Source: Peptococcaceae bacterium BICA1-7 (GTDB taxonomy: Bacteria > Bacillota > Desulfotomaculia > Desulfotomaculales > Desulfocucumaceae). Taken from it: a stretch of DNA of 64,000 nt. Positions 29,519 through 40,106 of this stretch are shown piece by piece (the first letter of the stretch is position 1; each line of letters opens with the position of its first letter). The DNA is taken from contig JUEB01000011.1 of NCBI GenBank assembly GCA_000802095.1, positions 186,001 to 250,000 on the forward strand, written 5' to 3'. Under the pieces are notes generated by a model. It had not been told where the DNA came from. It was given only the letters and a program-made list of their open reading frames with translations, and did no database searches. The translations under genes were made by a program, and so were the position numbers.

Positions 29519-29596
29519 GGTGGATGTAGCTCAGGTGGTTAGAGTACCAGATTGTGGCTCTGGGGGCCGTGGGTTCGAGTCCCATCATCCACCCCA
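29519..29596 (+). tRNA. tRNA-His (anticodon GUG)
   Basis: A full cloverleaf with acceptor GTGGATG/CATCCAC. It has the His-specific extra G at -1 (29519) facing C73, anticodon loop ATTGTGGC with GUG, T-loop TTCGAGT and an encoded CCA at 29594-29596. Confidence 0.95.
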
Positions 29597-29605
29597 AAAT
29601 TATAC

Positions 29606-29680
29606 TGGGGCGTCGCCAAGCGGTAAGGCACCGGTCTTTGGAATCGGCATTCGTTGGTTCGAATCCAGCCGCCCCAGCCA
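29606..29680 (+). tRNA. tRNA-Gln (anticodon UUG)
   Basis: Acceptor TGGGGCG/CGCCCCA, anticodon UUG in TCTTTGGAA, discriminator G and encoded CCA. It follows tRNA-His by 9 bases in the same transcript. Confidence 0.95.
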
Positions 29681-29713
29681 CTATCTTTAATGGCCGCTCT
29701 GCGGCCTCAGTTT

Positions 29714-29789
29714 GAGCCATTAGCTCAGTTGGTAGAGCACCTGACTTTTAATCAGGGTGTCGTTGGTTCGAGTCCAACATGGCTCACCA
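29714..29789 (+). tRNA. tRNA-Lys (anticodon UUU)
   Basis: Acceptor GAGCCAT/ATGGCTC, anticodon UUU in ACTTTTAAT, discriminator A and encoded CCA. It is the last tRNA of the three-gene operon; a terminator follows 5 bases later. Confidence 0.96.
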
Positions 29790-29793
29790 AGGC

Positions 29794-29823
29794 AGCGCCC
29801 GGTAATACCGGGCGTTGTTTTTT
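29794..29823 (+). terminator. Terminator of the tRNA operon
   Basis: GCGCCCGGT pairs with ACCGGGCGT across AAT and is followed by a run of T. Confidence 0.88.
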
Positions 29824-29855
29824 AGTTGCCTGGCTATATAATAACTGTTCCGGCA

Positions 29856-29884
29856 TTGCCTTTATTTAATTTATCCTGTATAAT
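29856..29884 (+). promoter_or_regulatory. Promoter of tRNA-Leu
   Basis: TTGCCT and a perfect TATAAT are 17 bases apart, 26 bases before the tRNA-Leu 5' end. Confidence 0.65.
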
Positions 29885-29910
29885 TTTTTCTGCAGCTTAT
29901 ATATTTACAT

Positions 29911-29996
29911 GCGGGCGTGGCGGAACGGCAGACGCGCTGGACTTAGGATCCAGTGGGAGCAATCTCGTGGAGGTTCAAGTCCTCTCGCCCGCACCA
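29911..29996 (+). tRNA. tRNA-Leu (anticodon UAG)
   Basis: An 86-base class II tRNA with acceptor GCGGGCG/CGCCCGC, anticodon UAG in ACTTAGGAT, a long variable arm (GGGAGCAATCTCGTGG region), T-loop TTCAAGT, A73 and encoded CCA. It has its own promoter, separate from the His-Gln-Lys operon. Confidence 0.95.
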
Positions 29997-37498: not shown

Positions 37499-37711
37499 CT
37501 ATCTGCTCAGTGTAAGAATAAATTCCATTCCATCAGCGTCTGCACTGACACTCCACCCGGAGTTTTTGGCCAGTCTTGTTACATTTTCCCTGGCTGCGCT
37601 GTTGTCCACCAGCACCCTTACCGCTCCCCCTGTTTTACTTTCTATCGCCCTTTTCACCATAAGAACCGGTTCCGGGCATAAAAGCCCCCGGGCATCAACC
37701 GTTATGCCCAT
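37499..37711 (-). CDS. TusA/SirA-like protein, selenium or sulfur carrier
   Basis: The protein has 70 residues from ATG 37711, 8 bases after GGGGGTGT; the frame can be extended to 37720. The sulfur-carrying Cys lies in the canonical DARGLLCPEPV motif near residue 12. Single-domain TusA proteins relay persulfide. When next to yedE, relatives (the N-terminal domain of YedF) are linked to selenium metabolism. It overlaps the end of the YedE gene, so the two are coupled. Confidence 0.87.
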   Translation of the reverse strand: MGITVDARGLLCPEPVLMVKRAIESKTGGAVRVLVDNSAARENVTRLAKNSGWSVSADADGMEFILTLSR

Positions 37712-38783
37712 ATCCAACACCCCCGCTTACCGAACTTGTTTTATATGTTCCTAAAAAGCCTATTCCCAACACAACTGCAAGGCCTATCACGGTAGCATAC
37801 TGCCCCGCCAGAGGAACCCCCTTGGGGCTTGCCGCCAGCCCAAAATTATGGGCAAAGGCCGCCCCTGCAATAAAGCCTATAATGGTGACGGCGCAGTCAG
37901 TATTGCCCTCACTGGCTGCAATTATCTGCCTCAAAGGGCAGCCCCCCAGCATTGTGGCCGCGGCGCCGGCCAGGGTCATCCCCAGAAAGTTCCACAGGCC
38001 GTCGGTATGAGCTATGGGCTGCCCGGCAAATCCCGGATTAAAAAATCCCGCAAAAAGATTACCGAGGAAGGCGAACAGCAGCAGGGACAGGAACCCTAAA
38101 AGTAGATGGCTGTCCCTGAATAGAATGAAGTCCCTTATGCCGCCTATCATGCAAAAGCGGGATCGCTGCGCCATAACACCAACTGCCAGCCCTGCAGCCG
38201 CAGCAATGATCACAGGGGCATGCATGGAGCCGGGCCCGCTTTTGCTGGCAAAAAAGTATGTAACCCCGGACAGGACTAATATCAATATAGCAATTGCTGT
38301 TGCCGGAAATATAAATCCGTTTACTGAAGGAAGCGCCACTGCCCGTCCAAGGCTGAATCCCCTGTTCAAAAACTGTATACCTACAAAAACACCCGCTATT
38401 AGGCCCAGTATACCTACTCCGGCGTTCAGATCCCCTCCGGACAGCCTGAGCACCGCCCTTACCGGACAGCCCAGGAATACCAGCATTCCCAGCATACCGC
38501 TAAAAGCCAGGGCAAACCTGGCAAAGGGGCTGGATCCGCCCACCGGCCTGTATTCCTTGGTTAAGATTGCGGCTATAAAGGCCCCGGCAACAAGGCCGAA
38601 TATCTCGGGCCTCATGTACTGGACAGTTTCCGCACGGTGAAAGCCCAGCCCGCCACTTATATCCCTCATAAAACAGGCTATACAGTAGCCCATGTTGGCG
38701 GGATTGCCGTACCTGACAAGCAGTACGGACAGCAGACCCAACACCCCGCCTGTAACCACCACCAATACTTTTTTGTTTGTCAT
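37695..38783 (-). CDS. yedE: YedE-type selenium transporter/metabolism membrane protein
   Basis: The 362-residue protein has about ten hydrophobic helices. Repeated glycine-cysteine signatures are MGYCIACFMRDISGG near residue 32, FLGCPVRAVLRLSGGD near 103 and MLGGCPLRQIIAASEG near 285. This is the YeeE/YedE transporter family, where the variant with CIACFMRD is the YedE branch associated with selenium metabolism (also named FdhT). Clear AAAGGGAGG site. It starts 26 bases downstream of a selenocysteine-like tRNA on the same strand, with no terminator between them, and is followed by a TusA-like gene. Confidence 0.9.
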   Translation of the reverse strand: MTNKKVLVVVTGGVLGLLSVLLVRYGNPANMGYCIACFMRDISGGLGFHRAETVQYMRPEIFGLVAGAFIAAILTKEYRPVGGSSPFARFALAFSGMLGMLVFLGCPVRAVLRLSGGDLNAGVGILGLIAGVFVGIQFLNRGFSLGRAVALPSVNGFIFPATAIAILILVLSGVTYFFASKSGPGSMHAPVIIAAAAGLAVGVMAQRSRFCMIGGIRDFILFRDSHLLLGFLSLLLFAFLGNLFAGFFNPGFAGQPIAHTDGLWNFLGMTLAGAAATMLGGCPLRQIIAASEGNTDCAVTIIGFIAGAAFAHNFGLAASPKGVPLAGQYATVIGLAVVLGIGFLGTYKTSSVSGGVGYGHNG

Positions 38784-38808
38784 AAAAAGCCTCCCTTTAA
38801 TATTAAAA

Positions 38809-38904
38809 TGGAGGGAAGAAGTCGGAATCGAACCGGACTCCGGCCTGGGTCACAGGCCGGCCAGCAGGTTTGCAGCCTGTGGGGGGACCATCCCCTTTCT
38901 TCCC
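38809..38904 (-). tRNA. Selenocysteine-tRNA-like tRNA-Cys (anticodon GCA, long variable arm)
   Basis: A 96-base tRNA folds on the minus strand. The acceptor is 8 bp (GGGAAGAA with TTCTTCCC) and the discriminator is U73 with encoded CCA (38809-38811). The T-loop is TTCGATT, with a T-stem of GTCCGG on CCGAC that needs one bulged C. The variable arm has a perfect 8-bp stem CCGGCCTG/CAGGCCGG. The anticodon loop CTGCAAA gives GCA (38871-38873). An 8-bp acceptor with a long extra arm is selC-like, but GCA and U73 are the main identity marks of CysRS. tRNAs of this mixed kind have been reported as minor Cys/Sec tRNAs with a bulge. Normal tRNA-Cys has a short extra arm. Confidence 0.85.
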
Positions 38905-38910
38905 GGGAAT

Positions 38911-38939
38911 ATTATACACCCAAAAAGGTAGCTATATAA
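38911..38939 (-). promoter_or_regulatory. Promoter of the Sec-like tRNA-Cys/yedE unit
   Basis: On the minus strand a perfect -10 TATAAT (with TG before it) lies at 38911-38916, six bases before the tRNA 5' end, with a weak -35 (TTATAT) 17 bases further up. Transcription would start at or next to the mature tRNA end. Confidence 0.6.
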
Positions 38940-39049: not shown

Positions 39050-39095
39050 AAAAAAGGTGCAGCGCCTTTAGTAAAAGGAGCTGCACCTTTTTTTT
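39050..39095. terminator. Strong terminator downstream of the thymidylate-synthase-like gene
   Basis: AAAAAAGGTGCAGC pairs with GCTGCACCTTTTTT, with a further CCTTTAGTAAAAGG stem inside the loop. A and T runs on both sides allow both directions. It insulates the tRNA/yedE unit from the gene at 39124. Confidence 0.85.
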
Positions 39096-39123: not shown

Positions 39124-39852
39124 TTATTTACCGCTATAAACCCTGGCCTTGGAAAGCTCAAACATGTGCTCCCGGACATTAAGGCTTTTTGACATTACAA
39201 TCATCTCACCATCGACCAGAGGCAGCCCGTCGTTAGGGTTAGGTCCGATCTGATCCACCAGCCACTCTTTAAAAAGCTGCAGCCCGCCCAGGTTCTCGGG
39301 AAAACCTCCCCACAGATCCCACACCCTGAAATAAACAATAAAGTGTAGCCTGTATACGTTGGCTATGCGGTCTTTCCTTATTTTAGAGTCAATCAGCCTG
39401 AGGCAGGGCTGTGACTTGCCATCCACAAGGTCTTCCGGACGCGCTATCTCAATACATGACTTTACATGGCCGAAGCCCTTTTCCTTAAAGCTGTTGATGA
39501 GGTGCTCCACCTGTATGCAGATGCGCTCGCCGTATGTGTATTTCTGATTATCCTCTTTGCCGGGACCCAGTATGTATGTTTGAAAATATTCCTCTATCCT
39601 GTCAATGGTGGTGGGCGGGGATATGCTCAGTCCCGGGGGTATCTCGTCACACAGCGGCCGAAGGCCCGGGTGTCTTATCCGGCAGCAGGCAAAATCAAAC
39701 TCCCTCCTGATCTGTCCCGGGTAACTTCCCCACTCAACAGGGTATTCGTAAGCGTCTATTTCCCATAATTTTTTCTGCAACTGAAACCAGGCATCGGGCA
39801 AATTGTGTGCGTCCACAAAAATTGGGGTGAGATATTCAATAGAGTCCGCCAT
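39124..39852 (-). CDS. Thymidylate synthase-superfamily enzyme
   Basis: The protein has 242 residues from ATG 39852 behind GGAGGAG; the longer frame from 39891 includes that site. Late motifs point to the TS/dCMP-hydroxymethylase fold: SQPCLRLIDSKIR (with the catalytic-type Cys), VYFRVWDLWGGFPENLGGLQ and SKSLNVREHMFEL. These resemble archaeal-type ThyA-like proteins more than canonical ThyA. It may make thymidylate or modify a pyrimidine. It is alone on its transcript. Confidence 0.72.
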   Translation of the reverse strand: MADSIEYLTPIFVDAHNLPDAWFQLQKKLWEIDAYEYPVEWGSYPGQIRREFDFACCRIRHPGLRPLCDEIPPGLSISPPTTIDRIEEYFQTYILGPGKEDNQKYTYGERICIQVEHLINSFKEKGFGHVKSCIEIARPEDLVDGKSQPCLRLIDSKIRKDRIANVYRLHFIVYFRVWDLWGGFPENLGGLQLFKEWLVDQIGPNPNDGLPLVDGEMIVMSKSLNVREHMFELSKARVYSGK

Positions 39853-40106
39853 ATTAACTCCTCCAGATATATTTGTCATACACCACTCCATCTTTTTTCG
39901 CTGCCAGCCTTTTATTTACCTTCCTCAGCCATTTAAAAAAATAAATTACCACCCCCTAATTGTCGCATAAATGGTTGTAAAAGCAGAAAAAGCTAGTTTT
40001 TTGTAGGAAAAATTTAGCATGTCCAGTGGAGGATTCCATAGCACATTGTCTAAGTATTATTCTATTTATCATATATTTCCCGCTCAGGGAAAGGCAGTGA
40101 TATTCT

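Follow-up and report, generated by a model that had tools for sequence, protein, structure and literature searches.

A selC*-type cysteine tRNA beside the putative selenium transporter gene yedE in Peptococcaceae bacterium BICA1-7 and related Firmicutes

The window analysed here is a 64,000-nucleotide stretch of contig C11 (GenBank JUEB01000011.1) in the 4.75-Mb genome of Peptococcaceae bacterium BICA1-7 (G000). The closest named relatives found for this genome include Peptococcaceae bacterium BRH_c4a and BRH_c4b. On the minus strand of the window, a 96-nucleotide tRNA gene (38809-38904) is followed by yedE (38783-37695), which encodes a putative selenium transporter, and by a gene for a TusA-like carrier (37720-37499). 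The tRNA combines the body of a selenocysteine (Sec) tRNA with the identity of a cysteine (Cys) tRNA, and it is a member of the selC* tRNA-Cys family. Its linkage to yedE is far beyond chance. The tRNA type is already known; what is added is that it recurs beside selenium genes and occurs in Sec-decoding genomes only. The reading that we favour, and consider on balance probable, is that the tRNA heads a yedE-tusA operon, is delivered by SelB, and back-fills Sec codons with Cys when selenium is short.

ARAGORN calls the gene at 38809-38904(-) as tRNA-Cys(GCA). The Rfam model for tRNA-Sec (RF01852) matches the same interval with 48.2 bits, which barely exceeds the gathering score of 47. A tRNA-Sec is marked by a UCA anticodon and G73, and the window tRNA has GCA and U73 instead. 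The true tRNA-Sec (UCA, G73) is a separate gene of the same genome (C26:210264, 68.4 bits), in which an ordinary canonical tRNA-Cys of 75 nucleotides is also present. Across an alignment of 38 non-identical homologues of the window tRNA, the GCA anticodon, U73 and the terminal CCA are invariant (38/38).

The same alignment supports the fold. Pairs were counted as 8 base pairs (bp) in the acceptor stem, 5 in the D-stem, 5 in the anticodon stem, 7 in the variable stem, and 5 plus one bulge in the T-stem. Pairing is seen in 97.6% of the cells. Two-sided changes occur in 21 of the 30 pairs (shuffled mean 9.5), far above shuffles and slid controls. The eighth acceptor pair covaries (AU/GC/UA), and the minimum-free-energy fold of the window tRNA contains a variable arm of 8 bp (z = -2.78). 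The first pair of the anticodon stem (27-43) is weak and often A-C, in the window tRNA as in its relatives. The T-stem begins with G49-C65 and U50-A64, followed by one bulged nucleotide, usually C, and three further pairs. Because the first two pairs are found in 38/38 homologues and 37/40 tRNA-Sec genes, and in only 6/82 other tRNAs, the T-stem junction is that of tRNA-Sec. An earlier reading of the window, made from its letters alone and referred to here as the original prediction, had described a tRNA-Sec-like molecule with GCA and U73, an 8-bp acceptor stem, an 8-bp variable arm and a bulged C in the T-stem. All of these features stand. A normal class I tRNA-Cys fold was looked for by covariance model and covariation and did not occur; the ARAGORN call, the Rfam match to tRNA-Sec and the covariation in the 38 relatives reject it.

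The original prediction had also proposed a physical link to a selenium transport gene, and this link is conserved. Codirectional selC* and yedE genes lie within 300 bp of each other in 15 of the 40 genomes that have both, in a search that left out Desulfobacterota, Nitrospirota and Thermodesulfobacteriota. These genomes represent six families (f1, f2, f4, f6, f16 and f133). Named examples are a Desulfovirgula metagenome-assembled genome (MAG; L049) and Desulfoscipio geothermicus (L053, the second selC* copy of this genome). The arrangement varies: the order is yedE-tRNA-tusA in G335, the two genes are divergent in G043, and in family f8 they lie 6-17 kb apart on the same strand. Under a simple model, the chance of four independent cases of linkage in 40 is about 1e-11. 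On the YedE tree the linked state is clustered and needs 9 changes, at least 4 of them forced by well-supported branches. The tree is compatible both with repeated gain and with an old linkage that was often lost.

A second selenium gene accompanies the tRNA in some lineages. A LysR regulator lies directly upstream in f6, in f2, and at L054 of genome G181, in which yedE was not found. All six LysR regulators tested exceed the cut-off of NF040786, the model for LysR proteins of selenium metabolism (LysR_Sec_metab). LysR aside, clustering of the neighbours gave no further gene with a comparable recurrence across families. Other recurring neighbours are a tRNA-Lys(CTT) with a small open reading frame in one group and a double-cubane reductase with its activase in another; neither is clearly related to selenium. 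The passages of Lin et al. (PMC5322559) drawn on here propose YedE and a group of LysR proteins as selenium genes and do not discuss a selC*-type tRNA.

The distribution of the tRNA also points to selenium. With covariance model R1, selC* tRNAs score about 72 bits and up and tRNA-Sec about 48-70 bits, a boundary verified by reading the sequences. The model finds selC* in at least 28 of 398 genomes of the phylum. The Sec synthesis gene selA is present in 28/28 of these, compared with 257/398 overall (P = 3e-6 by genome, 0.0014 by family). SelB is found in all 57 selC* genomes examined, as a single copy in 56, and Cys-tRNA synthetase (CysRS) is single in 56, with none seen in one incomplete MAG. 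selC* is confined to Sec-decoding genomes. The window genome itself has one SelB and one full-length CysRS, and none of the 57 genomes has an extra SelB plus CysRS of the Desulfobacterales kind.

Several single genomes depart from the common pattern. Of the 57, only G025 has two SelB genes; the second (L249, C8:76500-85500) adjoins a double-cubane reductase and has yedE-tusA convergent to it, and it lies by yedE and not by selC*. Two selC* copies each are found in G018, G022, G047 and G057, and in G022 and G057 one copy adjoins yedE while the other is elsewhere. This kind of tRNA was reportedly called tRNA-ReC in 2018, and a derivative with a UCA anticodon in Pelotomaculum tRNA-ReU. G037 carries a relative of the window tRNA with a UCA anticodon and A73 (L032, 1501-1596(+)) and, separately, a true tRNA-Sec (L212). 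The UCA/A73 copy would fit such a tRNA-ReU.

These data bear on the possibility that the tRNA is a spare Cys tRNA, which reads UGU and UGC through EF-Tu and whose odd body is an evolutionary leftover. Strict upkeep of GCA and of CysRS identity would be expected in that case, and the place beside a tRNA-Lys gene in one group also fits. However, canonical tRNA-Cys is present in 55 of the 57 selC* genomes, selection maintains the tRNA-Sec-like body, the gene is found only in selA-bearing genomes, and one relative reportedly bypasses EF-Tu (PMC11415595). A spare Cys tRNA is therefore unlikely. The exceptions are G034 and G040, where canonical tRNA-Cys was not found by DNA similarity or pattern. 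There selC* might be the sole Cys tRNA, or the canonical gene might have diverged or lie outside the assembly.

The layout of the window locus suggests a single transcriptional unit. A perfect TATAAT hexamer (38911-38916, minus strand) stands 6 bp before the tRNA, and TATAAT- or TATTAT-like hexamers occur at the same place or near it in four relatives of family f1. The -10 box named in the original prediction stands, but its -35 partner is weak, and this promoter is absent from the list of the consensus scan. Between the CCA and the ATG of yedE lies a spacer (38784-38808) of 25 nucleotides, not the 26 first given, with the ribosome-binding site AGGGAGG and without a terminator. A terminator-like hairpin with a T-run, read in the sequence 3' of the upstream gene at about 39056-39087(-), would set the unit apart from that gene. 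It is not listed in the consensus scan, whose limit its loop exceeds or misses. In G006, which has no such tRNA, the AT-rich upstream region persists before yedE, which argues for one promoter serving both tRNA and yedE. Cotranscription of the tRNA with yedE-tusA, as first proposed, is probable.

The two protein genes are those originally predicted. YedE (37695-38783, minus strand) scores 475.7 bits with TIGR04112, for which the curated cut-off is 200. The TusA-like protein (37499-37720, minus strand), whose gene overlaps the end of yedE, has 73 residues and a CPEP motif and is a single-domain TusA (PF01206, 62.6 bits, cut-off 28.6). It is not a YedF (TIGR03527), which has SirA-like plus DsrE-like domains; the TusA part alone gives 56.1 bits, with a cut-off of 110. 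The upstream gene, at 39124-39891(-), has a match below cut-off to methanogen-type thymidylate synthase (43.9 bits with TIGR03283), and a similar gene is kept at the same place in L041. An ordinary tRNA cluster, His-Gln-Lys-Leu, lies elsewhere in the window at 29520-29996(+). In family f6 (L135, L137, L138, L140 and L141), the Shine-Dalgarno-like motif AAGGGAGGTGA or a similar one is found about 20-30 bp before the tRNA. A leader peptide reading from it through the tRNA was rejected, since the open frames differ between genomes and none is conserved.

Such a layout could also mean that the tRNA is mainly regulatory: as part of the 5' leader, through its processing, or by binding SelB or CysRS, it would set the expression of yedE-tusA as a leader, decoy or sensor. 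The promoter directly before the tRNA and the short gap to yedE agree with this, and for a tRNA-Sec gene that lies within selB there is a proposal that it tunes SelB (PMC8124441). Yet most selC* copies are not before yedE, yedE precedes the tRNA in G335 and persists without it in G006, and a decoy would not need strict upkeep of its anticodon. We give this explanation little credence. The roles first suggested for the tRNA, which were delivery of Cys or Sec to chosen UGU/UGC codons, a SelB decoy and a selenium sensor, have become less likely.

It is more doubtful still that the neighbourhood is meaningless, the tRNA gene having landed near yedE and the arrangement having been inherited. Clustering on the YedE tree and the absence of linkage from most genomes would follow from this, but the six families, the several gene orders, the forced changes and the chance estimate are against it, as is the LysR gene, a second selenium gene that is adjacent too, once without a detected yedE. 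Finally, it is hardly credible that the gene encodes a tRNA-Sec whose Cys anticodon lets it insert Sec at UGC/UGU, a case reported for Aeromonas salmonicida (PMC11415595): U73 occurs in every GCA copy, whereas G73 and UCA mark the true tRNA-Sec that these genomes also have.

In the favoured reading, which is SelB-dependent recoding of Sec codons to Cys, the single normal CysRS of the host would charge the tRNA with Cys through GCA and U73. The tRNA-Sec-like body would then hand the Cys-tRNA to SelB rather than EF-Tu, and Cys may thereby be placed at UGA codons that are marked by a Sec insertion sequence (SECIS) and normally receive Sec. Scarcity of selenium is presumed to raise tRNA, yedE and tusA together. 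YedE and TusA would gather selenium meanwhile, and the SelB-delivered Cys-tRNA would keep the reading frames of selenoproteins open as Cys forms. For the window copy we infer charging, use by SelB, cotranscription and selenium control. Delivery by SelB and recoding of UGA to Cys are reported for a related tRNA: the GCA version of Desulfotomaculum (D.) nigrificans is delivered by SelB and not EF-Tu and puts Cys at UGA-Sec codons (PMC11415595). The original prediction did not name this route, and its interpretation is partly supported. In Methanococcus maripaludis, yedE mRNA rises by log2 5.3 on selenium depletion (PMC11097638).

Several observations weigh against this reading. The genes are kept apart in 25 of the 40 genomes with both, and about a dozen selC* genomes have no detected yedE, so linkage is not needed for function. 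G006, which belongs to the genus of G003, has yedE but lacks the tRNA. Before yedE at 2056 of its locus (L146) the tRNA is apparently deleted, with its probable first bases left, evidence that yedE can do without it; selA and tRNA-Sec were not found in this 84%-complete MAG. UGA is an imperfect match for a GCA anticodon. The SelB result concerns a relative and is known from a review (PMC11415595). Movement of selenium by YedE is unproven, and a yedE deletion in M. maripaludis had no clear transport defect (PMC11097638).

A broader version of the proposal, which we put forward only tentatively, is that Desulfotomaculum-type and related Firmicutes have selC*/tRNA-ReC as a dedicated component of a selenium-starvation operon, (LysR)-tRNA-yedE-tusA. 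Selenium acquisition and Sec-to-Cys recoding would then be joined in one transcript until selenium returns. The reviews PMC7609411 and PMC11415595 describe Cys-for-Sec recoding and give no established role for it in native hosts. Selenium limitation is the condition indicated by an operon in which putative selenium genes and a selenium regulator accompany the tRNA, and the operon also indicates concrete strains in which Cys may be sought at Sec codons. If the proposal is true, it describes a codon whose meaning changes conditionally in nature. The chance that the linkage was already printed in Mukai 2017 or Vargas-Rodriguez 2018 is about one in three.

Among known systems, the closest is the selC* tRNA-Cys or tRNA-ReC of Mukai 2017 and Vargas-Rodriguez 2018 (via PMC7609411 and PMC11415595), and the original attribution of such tRNAs to the Soll group was right. 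The family is described from anaerobic Firmicutes and others, with a bulged 8/4 structure, a GCA anticodon and U73 (PMC7609411). The window tRNA shares the GCA anticodon, U73, 8-bp acceptor stem, bulged T-stem and long variable arm, as well as a host among anaerobic Firmicutes that also have tRNA-Sec; the window genome has a separate tRNA-Sec and the Sec machinery. The reviewed tRNAs have an A51a bulge, whereas the bulge here is usually C and the T-stem is counted as 5 bp plus bulge. Also unlike them, the window tRNA has no selB* or cysS* and heads a yedE-tusA unit, which the two reviews do not mention behind selC*. The selC* system of Desulfobacterales has a second SelB, a CysRS without anticodon domain and a UCA anticodon; the window genome lacks these and has GCA.

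Bacterial tRNA-Sec (RF01852) and the window tRNA have in common the UGGU D-loop on an extended D-stem, the long variable arm, the 8-bp acceptor stem and the G49-C65/U50-A64 pairs. They differ in anticodon (UCA, here GCA), in base 73 (G, here U) and in the bulged T-stem. With canonical tRNA-Cys the window tRNA shares GCA and U73, and hence CysRS identity, but the canonical form is 75-76 nucleotides long, with a 7-bp acceptor stem, a short variable loop and another T-stem junction. Lastly, selC nested in selB of Alphaproteobacteria (PMC8124441) likewise joins a selenium-related tRNA to a selenium-related mRNA. There a tRNA-Sec lies inside the selB frame, whereas here a tRNA-Cys precedes yedE without overlap.
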